This document shows positions 53,560 through 63,626 of a stretch of DNA of 64,000 bases, in pieces. The stretch's first letter is position 1. Every line of letters begins with the position of its first letter. Source of the DNA: Larus michahellis (taxonomy: Eukaryota > Chordata > Aves > Charadriiformes > Laridae); NCBI RefSeq assembly GCF_964199755.1, contig NC_133914.1:1984001-2048000 (forward strand), in the 5' to 3' direction. Position numbers and translations under genes: made by a program. The notes under the pieces are model-generated. The model made no database searches. It had not been told where the DNA came from and saw nothing but the letters and a program-made list of their open reading frames with translations.

Positions 53560-54060
53560 CTTTGCCCCAGTTTGCGGTGTAACTGCAGCAGACACAGGCC
53601 GCGCTGGCGCCCCCGCTCCCCGTCCCGTCCTCCTCCGCGGCCGAGGACGCCCGAGGCGGTGGAAAGCGCCGCCGCTGGGCAACGGGCCCGCGCGTGCCTG
53701 GCAACCGGCCCTGAGGCGGCGGGGCCGGGCCTGAAAGGTGACGGGAGAGGGCCGGGACCGGGGCTTAAAGGTGACGGGAGAGGGCCGGGACCGGGGCCGG
53801 GGCCTGAAAGGTGATGGGAGAGGGCCGGGCCCGGGGCTTGGTGGAGAGGGGAGAGGGCCGGGAGCGACCCTGAGGCCGGGCGGGGAGCGAGCCTGGGCCG
53901 CGCCGGGCCGTGAGGGGAGAGGGCTGGGGCTAAGGCCGACGGGAGGGAAGGCCCCAGAGAAGCGGGGCCGAGCTCGGGATGAGCCCCGAGAGAGCAGCAG
54001 GGCCCTGGCACGGAGGAGCTGGGTCACCCTGCTCAAGGCCGCCCGCGCCCTGCCGAGGTG
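53560..54060 (+). promoter_or_regulatory. TEKT2: TEKT2 CpG island promoter with RFX-like X-box
   Basis: GC- and CpG-dense block upstream of TEKT2. GTGCCTGGCAAC at 53694-53705 resembles the X-box bound by RFX factors, which drive ciliary genes. A second GGGCAAC half site lies at 53677-53683. A donor-like GAG|GTGAGA at 54057/54058 could end a non-coding first exon that splices to the acceptor at 54880 just before the TEKT2 start. Promoter role and exon are inferred; the X-box lacks one base of the ideal spacing. Confidence 0.6.
53731..53870 (+). repeat. GC-rich minisatellite, 33-39 bp unit
   Basis: Three clear tandem copies start at about 53731, 53764 and 53803. Each carries GGTGACGGGAGAGGGCCGGG or a one-base variant, and a fourth, more diverged copy follows to about 53870. 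The repeat creates a long proline/arginine-rich open frame on the minus strand that should not be taken as a gene. Confidence 0.85.
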
Positions 54061-54896
54061 AGAGGCCCTCCTCGCTGCGGGCTGAGCCCCTTCCCTGTTT
54101 GCCCCTGCCACCTGTGGGGTCAGGCCCTGAGCCCTCTGTGCCTTCTCTCTGGCTCTGCAGCCCCAAGTCCTGCCCGCAGAGATTCCTTCCCCTCAGGAGT
54201 TCCCCGGCTTCTCTTCCCCAGCCGCCTTTGGAGCAGATGGCTGTGCTCAGGGAGCTCTGTCCCAGCTACCTGTGCCTGGGAAGGCTGGGGGACAGGCATG
54301 GGATGTACCGGAGCCAGGGAAACTGTCTGCCCCGGAACTCTACCTGACTCTGGGTTTTTTGGGACCTGCAGTCTCCTCAAGGAGCTGCTCCGATCCTGTT
54401 GAGTGGTCTCTGTGATTCCCACTGGTTTTGCAGGGATATGCTGGGTAGCAAGGAAGATGGCTGCAAACTGTACTGTTCCTGCAAAGCCTTTGAGTCCCCT
54501 GAGACTGCAGCCCTGGGCTGAGCCTAGGCAGCTGTAACAAAAGCAGAATCAGTAATATAATCAGCCGTTTTGTCCAAGCTCAATAAATAGTGTGTGAGAG
54601 ATGGCACTGTGAGGGGCTCCTTGTCTCTCCACAAATAGCGCTGCTCTCCAGGCAGAGAGAGGTGGACAGGGCTTTCCTCCCAGCCCAGGGGCAGAGGGTA
54701 GCTCCGATCGCCCACCCTTGTGCTTCCCTGCTTGTGTGGACATGTGTGTCTGTATTAGACGAGGTGCCAGGATAGAGCTTGCTAATGCTTTTCTCTTGAA
54801 GAGGTTCCCAATTTGTGGGTGCATCTCCATTTCTGGTGTATTTTCATGAATAAACATGAAAATCTTGCGTTCCCTTTTAGTCACCTGTTTAGCAAG

Positions 54897-57800
54897 ATGG
54901 CCACACTGAGTGTAAAGCCAGGACAGCGGTTCACTGTGCCGGATTGGCACACCAACTCCCATCTCATCTCAGCCGATGCTGAACGCCAGCGCTCTGCTTC
55001 CCACCTAGTCCGGCAGGAAGCCCGAGCTCTCCGCAACGAAACCAACAACCAGGTGGGCCTTCTGGCAGGTTGGCTGCTCCCAGGTTTGTCAGAACCATGG
55101 GCTGAGGAGTGTGGGAGAGTGTCTAGATCCGGATGTGTGGATGAGGGAATAGAAGAAGGCTTTACCTCTATAGAACCTGATAAAAATGTACATTTACTTC
55201 CTGTAAACCCGTGTGCAATGATGCGTATTTACTGGCGTGAAATCCCTGGGTGTGATTCTTGTGTCTGTTGCAACTTGTGTGTTCTGTGCTCTCCGTTTGC
55301 ATAGATGACTCTTAGACCAAATGGCAATGTCTTATACTCCTGTGAGGGGTCAGTCAATGCTGAAAGCAGGGAAAGGCTTCAGCAAGATTCAAAACTGCAA
55401 TTCAGAAAAGAGTAGTGGCATTTCTCCTCTAATTTCAGGCAAAATGGGATGAGCACGACAACCAAACCCGCCTGACTGAACGTATCAGCAGCGTGAACAG
55501 ATGGAAAGAGACCCTGGACAAATGCCTCGCAGACATAGATGCGGAAATCGATGCCTTAGCCAAAGTATGTTGGGAAGACAGATGGCTGGAAATCAACTTA
55601 CACTCTCAACATGGGATGTTAAATAATTTAGGCTTCTCTTCTGCAATGGGCAAGCCCGTATGGAGTTTAAGGGGGGCTTATCACAGGTATACTGAGATCC
55701 ATACCTGATGAAATGGCTTCCTGGAAAGCAAGCCACTGTGTTCTTGGCTAAGCCAAGCCGTTTTACGGAGCTGCGCATTGTACGCTCGTGTTTGAGTTTA
55801 TGGGTGTTTTTTGTTGGTTTCGTTTTGGGGTGTTGGTTGTTTGGTTTTTTTAAAGCTCTGAAGGATAATGAGAAATATGTTAACATCATCATTCAAAAAT
55901 GTTTGATTTTTAGAGAATAGCAATGGGACATCTCTCTAATTCTTTCAGTTCTAAACCCAGAGGCTGCTGCTCCTGGAGTTGTTAGCCCTCAGCGAGGTGT
56001 GATTTCCAATGCAAAAAGCAGATGTAGAGGACTAATGTCCTTGGCTCTCAAAACTTTCATTCCAGACTTGCTAAAAGGTTTTGGAACTGCAAAGGCAGGC
56101 AGTGTGAGACCCTCTTAACGAGGGTATCGCTCGATTCCCCTTCCTTTCTTCCTCCCATCCCTGAAGGAGACTCCTCCTACACCCAGATGGCTTCTTCCTA
56201 CAGGTGAAGGAAGCAGCAGAATGTGCTCTCCAGGCAAAGAACTTGCCTTTGGATGTTTCCATTGAGTGCCTGACGCTCCGGGAGAGCCGCCGTGCTATCG
56301 ATTTGGTGAGGGACCCTGTGGGCGAAGAACTGCGCAAGGAGGTGAAGGTGATCGACAAAGCCAAGAGAGAACTGCAGCAGAGAGTGCGTGAAGCCTTCGA
56401 ACAGCTATGGTGAGGCACATGACACAGCTTTGGACCGGACTCTGCCCTCCTTGCTTGGCCCCGGCAGTTTAACGTGCCTCTAATGCCACACTGAGATGGG
56501 CAAGCAGGCCAGGCGTGGTTACCTCGGGGCAGTGGGCCTCGCAGAGGAGCCTTTGGTGATTATCGTCAAGGTCTATGGAGCTTGGGAGTTTGTAGGGGAG
56601 AGCAGGTCAAGGGAGACTTCCTAAGCATCCTTGGCCCACACAGATATCTTGTGCCACCTGTCTTGGTTCATGACCAGTGACCTGGAGGCGTTGAAGCTCC
56701 CAGACCCTAATCCCTCATGGGTCACTGCCCCGCTGCAGGAGGGCAGGCAGCTCAGTCCCCACGGTGCTCCAGAGCAAAGCACGGAGGGAGCCAGGCAGGG
56801 GGTACAGCAGGTACGCCGGAATAGCCGGTCAGGCTAAGTTCCCTGCCATCAGGGAGGGCAGGAGCTCATCTCTCATTTTAAAAAGATGACTGAGGTGGTG
56901 ATGAAAGCTTTGGAAATTGGGAGCTGCCTCTCCCCTATGCGTGCCCCCTGCTTACTCCAGCCCTGCTTTCTGCAGTCTCTTACAGGAAGCTCGCCAGCAG
57001 CTGAGCTGTGACCATCGGTGCAAGATGGAAGCATTGGAAATAGATCGCATGTGCTTATCCCTCAGCGTCAACTCTCCCAACATCTCCTTCAAGGTCAACC
57101 CAACCCGCGTCCCAGATGGGTAAGGAAAGAGCCTGCCCTTGTGGGGCCAAATCTGCGCTGGTGCTCGAAAGAGCCCTGGGCTGATTTTTCCATCCATGTT
57201 ACGTCCTGGCTTGATGGTGCAGTTTTTGAGAGATGTCAGAACAGGAGGTGGCTGTTGGGATTTGTTGTGGCTCTTGAATTTTGAAGGCACAGACCTTTGG
57301 GAGTTATCTAAATTGTCACTGCAAAACCGGAGAAGCTAGCTGCCCTGCCTCCCTCGTGTGTGGCTGGAGGTGACTCAGTAGTGGTGTAGTATCGGCCTTT
57401 GGCACGGCTTATGAGAGAGTTGCTGCACATTTTCACTTGCTTGGCATTTCATAGCATGGTTTGGATGTGTCCCCGGTTTGAGCAGATGTTGGGCTCGGTG
57501 CAGGAGCCACGGGGTAACAATCTCCAGCTGGTGCAGTGAGGAGATCAGACAGGATGTGACCTCCAGAGTTCCTGAATCATTTCATACTGCACAAAGCCTT
57601 CTCGGCCTGCAGCAGGTGGTTCCTTTTCAACAGTCTTGCAAACATTTGACTTATTTTCATAACTGCTGACTTGTTCACAGATCAACTGCACCTGATGAGT
57701 GGGAACGGAATAGCCAATGTAACAAGGAGCACGCTGAGGCAGAAATGAAAGCCTCGACTGAGCTCCGAGAAGCCGCACTGCTTACCATTGCACAGGTAGG

Positions 57801-60004
57801 TCAGTCCCTTGGCTGTGAATCGGTGGTGCGGTTCTTTATGGGGAGAATGGGCTGGCATGTGCTGTGGCCAGGGGATGGGAGCCTTTGAAAAGACAGCATT
57901 GGCCCATGGCCCTCTCCGAGAGCAGCTGCCCTCCTGGTTTAAAAGAGGCGCTTGGTTACGCTGCGGAGCTTGCAGCAGTCTCAGCAACCTGGAAGACACG
58001 TACCTGTCCATCGCTCCCGGCCCCCTGGCTCCAGGGGGGTGCGTGACCCCCTGCTCAGGCTTGTCCCAACCTCCCAGGCAACAGCTGGGAGAGAGACACC
58101 TTCTAGAGGTGTGTGACCGGAGCCTGTTCTCTCCTCAGACAAACAACGAGCTGGAGGCTCAGCGTGTAGCTACAGAGTTTGCCTTGCGCAAGAGGATTAG
58201 AGACCTGGACAGAGCCTACGATGAGCTGAAATGGCAGGAGCAGAATGTAAATGTTGCTTCCTTGGTTATCGAACACAGCCTTGGGTGGGAATCGAATCCA
58301 AAAGGCTCTTTGTTATGTGGAAAGCTACTTGGCCTGAGCATGGTTTCCACGTGAGAGCTGTTAAGTGGCGCATGTATGATCCCTGCAACATCCTACCTCT
58401 TTGTGCCATCACAGCTGCTGCTCTGGCATTTCCCAGCAGCAGTGCCAGGTTTTGGCCTTTTTATTTCACCCCTGGGCTCAACCGCTGTGGCCATGAAACA
58501 CCGGCAGCACCATGCCTGGTCTGTATGAAAAGCCCAGTCTGTGAACAGAGGGGTTCAGTACTGAGAAGCCACCAGCCCTTGTTTAAAATCCATTCCCAGC
58601 ACAGTAAAATCCCAGGACGCATGGGGGCTGTTTTCCAGTCTGTATCCCTGTCTGTCCTTCAAGACACATGTCTTTTATCTGTAGACCTTGGAGGAAATTA
58701 CTGAGATGGAGGAGGACATCCGACGCTTGGAGGAAGATCTTAGAAGGAAAATGCAAGATCTGAAAGTGGCACACACCCGCCTGGAGACCCGCACGTATCG
58801 GCCCAATGTGGAGCTCTGTCGGGATCAGGTACCAGCCTCACCTGGCAGCTTCCTGGAGGAGGGACAGGGGGAACTGACTGGGATGGGGGCTTGCGTGGAT
58901 CTGGAAAATCTGGGTGCGCTTTGGAGAAAACTACAGAGGGGCTGAGCAGCGAATCCTACAGTCATCTAGCACAGCAAGGAAATAAACGTCATAGCTGGGC
59001 TAGAAGGGGAGCGAGAGAACCGTGGCCTCTGTAAAACACCACTTCAGCTCCGTTAACTGCTGTGCCCTTCTCCCTCCCCATCTCGCAGGTCCAGTATGGG
59101 CTCACAGATGAGGTCCACCAGCTGGAAGGAACGATCCGCGCACTCAAACAGAAGCTGGCAGAGTCACAGTAAGTCTCCTGCTGCTGCAGAGCAGTGGCCC
59201 AGCATTGCCCACATGAAGAACAGGGCTATGTGCAGCCCTGGGCCTGGCACGCTTCCAGAAGCGGCATTTTGGAGCTCGGATCTGCTCGGATCAGGAGTGG
59301 AAATAGTCTTTGGGCTTGGTGGCGAGCTGGACTGGGCAGCAGAGTCTGGGCAAGGCACGAGAGGTCTGTGTGGTGGGACGGTGAATGGGGTTCCCACGGT
59401 CCCTGCTTGACTCTGACTTCAACCAGGCACAGACGGTTCTAAAAGGGAAAGAGAAAAAAGGGTGAAAAGTAAAGGAAGAAACAGAAGAGCTGCTTTGGGC
59501 TGGCGTGGGCTCCCGGGGCGCACATCTCTGCGCTGCGCTCCGGGAGCAGCGTGTGGGCTTGCTATTCACAGCCCCGAACAATGCTGCTGCTGTGTGCCGA
59601 GAAATACCCGATGCATTCGTTCTTCCTGCAAAGGCCAATGCTGCGCTGAGATTTCTGCTGCCAGAAAGTGGGAAGTTGGGTGTTTTCTGTCCAACTTGGG
59701 AAGTGAATGCAGTGCTTGAACCCAACTGCTCTCACCTCTGCTTGTTCCCAGGGACGCCTTGGACGCTCTTTACAGACAACTTTACTGCGTTCAGACAGAT
59801 ATCGGCTACAAAGCCAATTCCCTGCTGCTGGACAACAAGTGCTTGGAGAGCCGGAGAAGGCTCGTGGTCCCCGCCGAGAAATTTGTGCCAGAGCTCGACA
59901 CTTTCAACCGGACCACGAACCGCGCGCTCTCCCCACCGAAGAGCGGGCAGCTGGAGCTGGCTCGGTGCGCCGGGGAGAAAGCTACCGGTGACTCAGTTCC
60001 GTAG
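54897..60004 (+). CDS. TEKT2: TEKT2, tektin-2, complete (9 coding exons, 443 aa)
   Basis: Coding segments: 54897-55052, 55439-55564, 56204-56409, 56976-57119, 57681-57795, 58139-58246, 58685-58828, 59089-59168 and 59752-60004 (TAG 60002-60004). The coding exon 1 acceptor is at 54880 and the start MATLSVKP matches known TEKT2. Tektins are coiled-coil filament proteins inside the doublet microtubules of cilia and sperm flagella. The sequence is mostly heptad-like helix with the conserved stretches LPLDV.IECLTLRESRR and ELEAQRVATEFA. The tektin signature nonapeptide RPNVELCRD is in exon 7. At exon 4 the acceptor at 56975 is used; an AG ten bases later would shift the frame. The C-terminus runs 13 residues past the human end (after SGQLELA), explaining 443 versus 430 residues. 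The gene follows AGO3 and precedes ADPRS, as in mammals. Introns hold nothing else recognised. Confidence 0.97.
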
Positions 60005-60137: not shown

Positions 60138-60717
60138 AGAGTCTGTCCCCAAGAGCAGTTGTCATCCCGACGGCGTTGGAAGCGTTTTCGCGGTGATTGA
60201 ATCCATCTGGGCTCTTGGGTGTTTTTAAGTCCTTTAAAGTGCAAGGCGAGCGCGCTGAAAAGGGACTGTGTTAATGGTGGCGGCGGGCCAGATCCTGCCT
60301 CAAATCTGCTCGCTTTAGTGATTAAAGCGAAGTTTGGGTTGGGGTTTCCCCTTGCCCGCTGGCCCTGCCGAGGGAGGGCAGCCACGAAAGCAAAAGCTTG
60401 GAGAAGCCTGTTCTGGCTCTTGTGGGCGCAGACTCGTTAAAACTCAATTGCAAATTGAATTTGCGGCGCTCGCCTTCTGCCGGGAGTTTATTAATTTCTC
60501 TTCCAGGCGACGCTCTCCGCGCGTCCGAACTGGATTATTGCCCCGCGTGACGGGACCAGAACTTGGTTTCTTCATCCCCGAGGTGGGTGACGATGAAAAG
60601 CAGCCTGGGTTTCGACTCCTGTCCTCTCGGACTAAATTTTTATAATGAGAAATTGAGGGGAAAAAGATAAAATAATCGACGCTTTTGCCTTCCTGTAAAC
60701 GGGGAAACGAGGCGACA
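60138..60717. other. TEKT2-ADPRS spacer
   Basis: About 580 bases of mixed composition with rising GC towards ADPRS. No reading frame or repeat is recognised apart from the foldback that follows. Confidence 0.6.
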
Positions 60718-60740
60718 GGCGCCGCCGCCGCTCTCCTCCG

Positions 60741-60759
60741 GGCCGCCAGGGGGCGCTGT
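60741..60759 (+). promoter_or_regulatory. CTCF-like motif, left arm
   Basis: GGCCGCCAGGGGGCGCTGT closely matches the CTCF core consensus (GGCCACCAGGGGGCGCTA type). The orientation is forward, pointing to its mirror copy. Confidence 0.6.
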
Positions 60760-60771
60760 GCGCGGCGGCGC

Positions 60772-60790
60772 ACAGCGCCCCCTGGCGGCC
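60772..60790 (-). promoter_or_regulatory. CTCF-like motif, right arm (mirror copy)
   Basis: Exact reverse complement of the motif at 60741-60759, so the two CTCF-like sites face each other with 12 bases between them. Two proteins could hardly bind both at once at this distance. Confidence 0.6.
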
Positions 60791-60816
60791 CGGAGGAGAG
60801 CGGCGGCGGCGCCGGA

Positions 60817-60828
60817 GAAAATGGCGGC
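60817..60828 (+). promoter_or_regulatory. YY1/TISU-like start element of ADPRS
   Basis: GAAAATGGCGGC contains the start codon and differs from the TISU consensus (SAASATGGCGGC) at one base. It also matches the YY1 core AANATGGCGGC. Such elements mark genes with very short 5'UTRs that initiate without scanning. If that holds here, transcription may start inside or after the foldback. Confidence 0.5.
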
Positions 60829-63626
60829 GGCGGCGGGTTCGGGTTCAGGCACCGGGCGAGCGACGGCGCGGCCTCGGCCGGGAGCCGCCCGGTTCCGTGG
60901 CTGTTTGGCCGGGGCTTTGTTGGGTGATTGCCTGGGCGCCGTCTTCGAAGGCAGGAGCGTGGTGAAGCTGCCCGACCTTCTACGCTTCCTCCGAGGCCTG
61001 GAACCGGCCTCCGAGCCGCCTGAAACGGCGGAACCGGCCGGTAGCGCCCGTAGAGGTAGGAGGGGGGACGGGACGGGACGGTCCCCGGGAGCGGGATGGG
61101 GGTCAGGCCCGGAGCACACCCCCTACCCACCGGGTCGGGCCCGGCCCCCCCGCAGCCCCAGGATCGGGCTTTGGGTTGCGTGTCCCCCCGGCCCCGTCCT
61201 CACAGCCCCGGGGCCGCTGCCCCTCTGACTGGGTGCCCCCAGTCCTGAGGTGAGGGGCGTCTCCCTTGGGACACCCCTGGCTGTCCCCATTCCCTGCGGT
61301 GGTTTGGGGGGTGTTCCGGTCCCCCCCGGGGTGAGGGTGACCTTCTTGTCTCCTCATGTGCAGGGATGAGGGGTTTGGTGAGCTCGGCCTCAGCTCCTCC
61401 TCGAGCGGGGTCCGGCTGTGGAGTGTGCAGGGAACCGGCATATTGCAGTGCAGGGAGGAACAGATGTACCAAAAATCGATGAGGAGTAGAGTAAGAGAAG
61501 CACAAGACCGGTTATTTAACTCCTAGCAAGTGACGATGGATTCATGTTGGGGTTCTGAGCTGTGCCGTGCAAACACTTATAGTAGGCTCTTAAAAGGACT
61601 TGATTTTGTTGTGGTCTTGTCCAAAAATGCAACTGTGCTTTCTTTTTGCTTGTCAGTGTACGTCGTAAACTCCTTGAGAAGTAGGCTTGTCTCTCACTTC
61701 TCTGTATGTGCTTCTGTATATCAAACCTTTTTCTTGGCTCTTACTAATCTTGAGATGCTTTTTGTCTCATTCTTGCTGTGGATGCATCTCTTGCTCTGCA
61801 CCTTCTTACTGTGGTGACCAGGGCTAGCGATGAGCTCAGAGTGCTGGGGAGCTCCTGGTGATGTTTTAACTCCAGCTATACAGATAACAAGGCCTTGGAG
61901 AGTAGGGAAGTGCTGGCAGGGGAGAAGGACAGGAGGAGAGTGAGTTTGTCTCTGGATGGTCACATTATGTTTTGACCTTCTGTTTTAGAGACGCTTTCGT
62001 ACACGGACGACACGGCCATGAGCAGGTCGGTGGTGCAGTCCCTGCTAGCCAAGCGAGAGTTTGATGAAGTTGATATGGCCAAGAGGTAAGGACTGCAGAC
62101 AGCTTCAGAGGGCAGGGTGTTGACATTTACTAGCGATGGCAAAACTTTCTTAAGAGTCAGCAATCGCTGTAATTTTCCGTGAAAGGGGGCAGGGGGTAAG
62201 GCAAAATCATTGTTAATTTGTGGAGGAAAAAAATCAGAAAAGCTGTGGCTAATTCTGTAATTTATTATGCACTTTGCACTGTCCTGGAACGTGCAGCAGC
62301 ATTAGCTTTCATGTGGGTTCAGAGTCTGCTTGGAAATGAAGCAGGATGGGACGTGCTGTATTGCAGCCATGTATGTGTATTCACCTTTGAGGAAGATAAA
62401 GTGCAGAAATTTCAGAAGCATTTCCTTTCATGTTTTATTTGTTGCTATTTATGTTTGTACTTCCCTTAATTTAGTTAGTGAATATTAGTGAGGTCAGCTT
62501 CAGTTTGTTTATGATCTGTTTCCCTTTTGAATCCGCAGGCCTGGTAGCATTTGGTTCCACTTAAGGGAGAACATTTATTTGTTTAGAAAACTCTTCCACT
62601 GAACTTGAACAAAAGACTTTCTCTGTGGTTGTGACCCACGGAAACGTTTCCAGTTTGCTTCTATTTTAAGGCAAAGTTGAGAGGGAAGCAAGTGGGTTGA
62701 GAAAGGTGATGTTTAGACACCCTTTCCTCCTTTCACACCAGTTTTTGGGAATCAGATTCTTTCCCTACAGAACTGAATCACTTGAACCCTGGCTGTCGCT
62801 GAGTGATCCATGTGTTATTAATTCACTTCATCAAGTGGCTTTATGCAGCCTCTTTACAAACTTTAATAATGGACCAAATATCCCATGTATTTTTTCTCAC
62901 CTGCATAACCGCCGCTCTCTTGCCCATGCCAGGTTTGCTGAGGAGTACAAGAAGGAACCCAACCGGGGCTATGGGATGGCCGTTGTCAATGTCTTCAAGA
63001 AGCTCCTGAGCCCCAAGTGCAATGATGTGTTTGAACCAGCAAGAGCCCAGTTTAACGGGAAAGGCTCCTACGGCAATGGCGGTGCCATGAGGGTGGCAGG
63101 CATCTCACTGGTGTATTCTGATGTCCAGGATGTTAAGAAGGTACTGTTCATGGCTGTTTTGGGCTCCTCGGCTCTTAGAGTCCCTGCTGTCAGGCAAGTC
63201 TCACCGTGATCTCTCAGGCAGGTTTGCTAACGGCGTGTTTTCATTCGCAGTTTGCAAAGCTGAGTGCTGAGTTAACCCATGCCAACTCCTTGGGCTACAA
63301 CGGGGCCATCCTGCAGGCCCTGGCTGTGCATCTGGCCCTGCAGGGAGAGCTCAGCAAGGAGACCTTCCTGGAGCAGCTCATTAGCCACATGGAAGACGTA
63401 GAGGCAGATGATAAGTCTCTTACTGATGCCCGAACGTAAGTAGCTGTGAGGAGCACTAACTCTGCTGTGTACAGTTTATTGTGGCTCTTCACGTTCTCTC
63501 TTTTTCATTGTACTCTTGTTTCCAGGCTGGGATTTGAAGATTTACCGTTTTCGAGGCGTCTAAAGAAAATAAAGGAATTCTTGGAACTCAGCAGTGTTCC
63601 CAAAGCAGATGTGTTGTTTGAATTAG
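60821..63626 (+). CDS. ADPRS: ADPRS (ARH3), ADP-ribosylserine hydrolase, 5' five exons
   Basis: Coding segments are 60821-61055, 61989-62085, 62933-63140, 63251-63435 and 63526-63626, all GT-AG and in frame, giving about 275 residues. The last exon or exons fall beyond the right edge; human ARH3 has 363 residues. The enzyme removes ADP-ribose from serine on proteins, acting after PARP signalling in nucleus and mitochondria, and uses two magnesium ions. Family motifs seen: FRGCLAGALLGDCLG with the following Glu (GAVFEG), the metal-binding YTDDTA, VFKKLLSPKC.DVFEPARAQ, the glycine-rich FNGKGSYGNGGAMRVAGI and LGYNGAILQALAVHLALQGE. The second metal motif (GGDTDTIA in human) would be in the missing exon. 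The start is the first in-frame ATG after the foldback and sits in a TISU-like element. It follows TEKT2 as in mammals. Confidence 0.96.
61056..61988 (+). other. ADPRS intron 1
   Basis: The first 300 bases continue the CpG-rich promoter block and the rest is AT-richer. Nothing else was recognised. Confidence 0.7.

Follow-up and report, generated by a model that had tools for sequence, protein, structure and literature searches.

A perfect palindrome before the ADPRS start codon of Larus michahellis, and further long palindromes of two narrow sizes in GC-rich DNA of the same assembly

Perfect hairpins are reported to be made by template switching in one event, and one hairpin class is described as enriched in four-base loops (PMC8794818). 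Great-ape template-switch events are reported to be enriched in transcription factor sites and to favour AT-rich tracts (PMC7954356), and palindrome-perfecting switches in yeast are described as favoured by GC-rich templates and high transcription (PMC8191807; PMC3820800). In foldback (snap-back) priming at breaks, according to a review, self-copying can be primed by inverted repeats of 5-9 bp with spacers of 3-12 bp (PMC7999016). A cross-genome survey of perfect inverted repeats reports enrichment upstream of transcription starts and, for eukaryotes, AT-rich arms (PMC13155455).

The palindrome described here, which lies directly before the start codon of ADPRS, resembles the products of the four-point model of short-range template switching, by which one event yields a perfect inverted copy of a neighbouring sequence, a short loop, and a return to the strand (PMC7954356, PMC8794818). 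The template switches described there were read against ancestors and favour AT-rich tracts, whereas the members of the present class are GC-rich (having been found with GC-rich words), fall into two length classes, and are known from the sequence of one genome. Self-copying primed by short inverted repeats would be shared with foldback at breaks, for which the review describes large palindromic duplications as products, whereas copying here would halt after 31-50 bases (PMC7999016). The position of the palindrome recalls the surveyed enrichment upstream of transcription starts, whereas the class as a whole, being GC-rich and narrow in size, is unlike the AT-rich eukaryotic repeats reported there (PMC13155455). 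Among the titles and abstract openings listed in literature searches, none described such a palindrome class, which does not prove its absence.

The palindrome before ADPRS

The window, i.e., the whole 64-kb stretch that was analyzed (C23:1984001-2048000, from the 8.98-Mb C23), belongs to an assembly of 1,405,500,149 bases in 616 contigs. It contains one long palindrome of the kind considered here (Table 1), identified by sequence inspection and an inverted-repeat scan: 96 bases (60718-60813), with 46-nt arms that are 100% complementary around a 4-base loop, and a spacer of 7 bases (60814-60820) to the ADPRS ATG at 60821. The perfect foldback proposed in an earlier, sequence-only reading is thus confirmed in each of these respects. 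The runner-up perfect inverted repeats in the window (n = 5; loop up to 60) have 11-bp arms. Because three local Markov models, each run for 300 sequences of 2 kb (900 in all), gave no perfect arm longer than 15, a chance origin of the ADPRS palindrome is excluded, its arms being far beyond the simulated ones.

As DNA, the 96-nt strand folds with -80.8 kcal/mol (z -15.7; 0/200 shuffles as good), and 60700-60860 as RNA has a folding energy of -139.4. A DNA similarity search of the assembly with 60600-60900 matched all 301 bases at one place, hit the palindrome a second time on the opposite strand, and gave two weak partial matches besides; this search showed no further copy of the ADPRS locus.

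Table 1. Features at and around the ADPRS palindrome (positions in the window).
Feature	Position	Strand	Remarks
Tektin-family gene upstream of ADPRS	56204..60003	+	Pfam Tektin in two exons; borders approximate
Left arm of palindrome	60718..60763	+	46 bp, GC 0.87, 8 CpG
CTCF-type core CCGCCAGGGGGCGC	60743-60756	+	Forward relative to ADPRS
Loop GGCG	60764..60767		Separates the two arms; no strand
Right arm of palindrome	60768..60813	-	Exact reverse complement of the left arm
Second CTCF-type core CCGCCAGGGGGCGC	60775-60788	-	Faces the first core
Predicted transcription start zone	60788..60813	+	Inside the right arm, if the near-TISU acts like TISU (+5 to +30)
Near-TISU / YY1-type element GAAAATGGCGGC with start codon	60817..60828	+	11/12, one mismatch
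ADPRS (ARH3) exon 1, coding part	60821..61054	+	3' border approximate; human ARH3 match

ADPRS is identified by the match of exon 1 to human ARH3 (E 2.6e-12) and of a later exon to Pfam ADP_ribosyl_GH (E 3.1e-07). The tektin-family gene upstream is presumably TEKT2, judging by synteny, and an argonaute gene lies at the beginning of the window. Between the argonaute and tektin genes there is a GC-rich minisatellite (53720-53907; periods 33-73), and a TISU-like CAAGATGGCCAC is situated at 54893-54904, close to the apparent start of the tektin gene. The ADPRS frame is open upstream across the entire palindrome (60671-60820), with a stop at 60668-60670 and no upstream ATG. Prokaryote genome contigs scanned with ADPRS exon 1 gave 597 pattern stretches and no relatives, and viral contigs scanned with a word from the palindrome arm gave no match.

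Further palindromes in the assembly

GC-rich DNA of this assembly contains at least 25 long palindromes, most of them with short loops, of which the ADPRS palindrome is one; the other 24 were found by inverted word-pair searches and one chance match. The weak match on C4 (L003) contains a perfect palindrome with 48-bp arms and the loop CGA (L003 1349-1447; C4:26880874-26880972), which stops 81 bases before an ATG whose product matches FKBP3. In a scripted test, 4/44 strings from one word-pair search paired perfectly inward to a loop of <=8, compared with 12/8800 shuffled interiors; 6/42 strings from another search did so, compared with 12/8400 shuffled interiors, and 4/38 strings from a further search formed perfect inward pairs. 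None of 25 inverted GCCGCCCCG..CGGGGCGGC pairs was palindromic, and neither, by eye, were the five places with ETS-type inverted pairs. Raw totals against the reversed-pattern control are mixed: 63/44 (44-string search), 97/40 (42-string search), 216/187, 78/33, and 74/44, but 38/88 (38-string search), 25/85 (GCCGCCCCG..CGGGGCGGC), and 5/11 (ETS-type pairs). Raw pattern counts alone therefore show no excess; the pairing of interiors does. For the searches with raw totals of 216/187, 78/33, and 74/44, candidates were chosen by eye among the matches listed, as were two more from the 42-string search; L101 and L106 looked symmetrical and were rejected as long palindromes on measurement. The matches listed also include a GGCCCCGCCC..GGGCGGGGCC repeat within ~0.2 Mb of the ends of C2, C3, C4, C9, C12, C14, C16, and C17, a distribution as would be expected of a subtelomeric repeat.

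The control set comprised 60 of the 67 AAAATGGCGGCGGC sites in the assembly, fetched as 814-base stretches. These 60 comparable start regions contain no long palindrome (1/61 with FKBP3, ADPRS aside), the longest of their perfect arms measuring 16 bases around a loop of 86. The sole near-perfect case (L047; C4:20353748-20354561) has 20-bp arms with one mismatch and a loop of 7 (total 47); it lies 47-93 bases before an ATG and contains GCGCATGCGC. Shorter hairpins thus do occur in this genome. A sample of 200 kb, drawn from 20 places on C23, contained no long palindrome, its longest perfect arm being 14, in A/T runs. Members of the class are uncommon and found mainly in GC-rich DNA, as seen with search words that were all GC-rich and that AT-rich members would have escaped. 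Most word searches were sensitive to arms from about 12-15 bases, and one (raw 216/187) only to arms of at least about 30; the measured arms of the 25 palindromes are never shorter than 31 bases.

The 25 palindromes, measured with their flanks, fall into a short class (n = 15; total lengths 70, 72, 72, 72, 73, 73, 74, 74, 75, 76, 76, 76, 78, 80, and 81) and a long class (n = 10; 96, 96, 96, 99, 99, 100, 101, 101, 102, and 102), with no total length between 81 and 96. For the first 23, the class means are 74.8 and 99, and an inner gap of 15 occurred in 6/20,000 normal and 0/20,000 uniform draws, the distributions having been fitted to the same data. Later lengths were predicted beforehand to be 72-82 or 95-103; L109 (101) and L110 (99) agree with this, and L108 (70) narrowly misses it. 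We know of no template-switch model that predicts two narrow length classes, and these sizes of ~75 and ~99 are the most interesting and least explained part of the class.

Outside the loop, 14/25 palindromes are perfect, and the other 11 have mismatches or an indel: one mismatch each in L087, L089, L096, L099, L105, and L108; two each in L092 and L100 (the weakest member, with a loop of 11); four in 49 in L110; and a single-base difference within a run of G, perhaps a sequencing error, in L104 and L109. The single mismatches of L089 and L099 are CpG transitions. Mismatched members look like ageing DNA, suggestive of real DNA of different ages.

Origin of the palindromes

We consider it probable that the ADPRS palindrome arose in the germ line as a real mutation, through foldback (snap-back) copying or a short-range template switch, and that it is one of a class of such events in CpG-rich DNA. 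A 3' end of DNA within the GC-rich promoter would anneal to itself at a short inverted repeat around GCGC-GGCG-GCGC, copy its own strand for about 46 bases, and rejoin the original sequence; this would leave a second, inverted copy of the CTCF site beside the first. On either side of each palindrome lies unique sequence, different on the two sides and unlike a continuation of the arms. As the two flanks differ, copying ended on both sides, which is expected of turning back and then rejoining. ADPRS itself has the hallmarks of a template switch, namely a reverse-complement copy of neighbouring sequence and two junctions. The direction of copying, the polymerase, the germ-line origin, and the effect on ADPRS are inferred.

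For L086 the order of events can be read from a 21-bp tandem array, which begins within the right arm (208), continues past the end of the palindrome (239), and extends to 282. An array that spans this right-hand boundary marks the right arm as the old one and the left arm as its copy. At ADPRS, the GC content of the 50-bp flanks is 0.46 on the left and 0.72 on the right and changes only at the left end, which weakly suggests that the right arm may be old there too, as in L086. A possible direct repeat linking the ADPRS right arm to the region of the ATG falls short of significance (0.13), and flanking direct repeats or microhomology gave no signal beyond chance (observed mean 6.24, null 6.23). 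Several members have zero-length loops, because of which a simple one-strand hairpin would need an extra step. The contrast between GC-rich promoters here and the AT-rich tracts of great-ape events would also argue against template switching.

A systematic sequencing or assembly artefact, in which a fixed-reach reverse complement entered the consensus at GC-rich promoters through foldback reads, chimeric reads, or gap filling, is unlikely, and of the alternatives it is the one that best survives. In its favour are the perfect arms, the GC-rich, hairpin-prone sites, and the narrow size classes (70-81 and 96-102), which resemble short-read lengths, common ones being near the class means of 74.8 and 99. 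A plain foldback read, however, never returns to the other flank, whereas both flanks here are unique and different, and 11/25 members carry mismatches or an indel, one of them four substitutions. There is also only one such palindrome in the 64-kb window and none in the 200 kb sampled. Library artefacts involving inverted repeats, and likewise foldback reads, have been described (PMC10908179, PMC12870357), but the former source reports low-frequency calls, and the latter gives foldback reads as ~0.6% of nanopore genomic reads and virtually absent from PacBio HiFi; such rates would normally not dominate a consensus. The sequence-only reading had offered a template-switch foldback or an artefact. 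That pair of alternatives stands, and the at least 24 further palindromes, which it had not seen, together with the imperfect members, tell against a plain artefact, while the two length classes leave that side of it some weight.

A recent origin of the ADPRS palindrome is suggested by arm identity, which repeated homogenisation of the arms would likewise preserve. Assuming neutrality, no arm-to-arm correction, and 2e-9 substitutions per site per year, the lack of differences among 46 pairs would date the palindrome to less than about 16 million years. It is quite improbable that it is an old quasi-palindrome whose arms have been corrected against each other repeatedly and so stayed perfect, and which was perhaps retained for useful paired CTCF cores. 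Template switching is reported to maintain hairpins as well as create them (PMC8794818), and the arms hold a strong CTCF-type core, paired sites <100 bp apart being described as a class at active promoters (PMC5973138). Against arm correction, strongly diverged intermediates are rare (one "near" case among 86 strings tested), and CTCF-like cores (<=2 mismatches) are no general feature of the class, with 4/17 palindrome loci having one compared with 19/60 control promoters; given this lack of enrichment, CTCF was also rejected as the cause of the class.

A small transposable element or functional hairpin RNA gene is most improbable: the 70-100 nt short-loop hairpins are similar in size to microRNA precursors, but the loci have only GC-rich motifs in common, their flanks (17 loci) carry no target-site duplication signal, and the window has zero Rfam families at gathering score.

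Consequences for the ADPRS promoter

CTCF-type matches in the window (<=3 mismatches) number 25; the two arm cores, on opposite strands, are the only ones with 0 mismatches (the count for CCGCCAGGGGGCGC depends on the consensus, being 0 with one version and 1 with another), and the other 23 have three. The facing CTCF-like motifs of the sequence-only reading are thus recovered, one per arm. A facing pair CAGGGGGCGC..GCGCCCCCTG with a gap of 8-38 occurs once in the 1.4-Gb assembly, compared with zero for the reversed control. The two cores are 32 bp apart (centre to centre), well below 100 bp within a promoter, as in the paired sites (2xCTS) of PMC5973138; unlike 2xCTS, the ADPRS pair would have arisen as an exact inverted copy, and its cores are predicted binding sites. 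In another member (L093 150-251; 49-bp arms), the loop and right arm jointly make a CTCF-like core, CCGCTAGGTGGCGC.

The ADPRS ATG lies within ATGGCGGC, which agrees with the TISU consensus SAASATGGCGGC at 11/12 positions, as the earlier reading of a TISU-like start element had it; position 4 deviates and positions 5-12, said to be essential for transcription (PMC2518114), are exact. TISU matches with <=2 mismatches number 15 compared with 12.1 expected, and the ADPRS match, not significant alone, takes its weight from its position at the ATG. In its near-match around the ATG, the locus partly resembles TISU short-leader promoters, for which a position of +5 to +30 and a median leader of 12 are reported (PMC2518114), whereas the upstream palindrome is no part of the known TISU element. 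Because TISU sits at +5 to +30 and the ADPRS ATG is in a near-TISU, the start is predicted at 60788-60813. A start upstream of 60718 would load the leader with a hairpin calculated at about -128 to -140 kcal/mol, whereas starts from 60788 onward give leader energies of -9.6 or weaker. ADPRS transcription thus probably begins inside the right arm, such that the mRNA would escape the hairpin and likely hold at most a right-arm fragment. The short leader put forward from sequence alone agrees with both the published TISU position and the folding energies, and the start site itself is a prediction.

CTCF in forward orientation, at a median of ~79 bp upstream of the start, is reported to activate, and in the core promoter to repress (PMC12695661). 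Relative to the predicted start, the forward core would lie 38-64 bp upstream; the distance for the reversed core would be 6-32 bp, which places it in the core promoter. The palindrome could therefore have made a forward CTCF site at an activating distance plus a second site in the core promoter.

More broadly, we tentatively suggest, as a possibility short of an even chance, that CpG-rich promoters here undergo fixed-reach foldback insertion (~75 or ~99 bp), which repeatedly duplicates and inverts factor sites, at ADPRS giving the facing CTCF pair with its forward site at activating distance; the sizes would then reflect an undescribed physical limit, such as overhang or nucleosome geometry. 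If the palindromes are an artefact, it is a systematic one, from C1 to C23, which writes false promoter sequence of ~75 or 99 bp into the assembly, and this matters to assembly users. If they are real, a regulatory site of a housekeeping promoter was duplicated and inverted in a single mutation step, and such events form a class across the genome, its two sizes pointing to a previously unrecognised limit on foldback copying.
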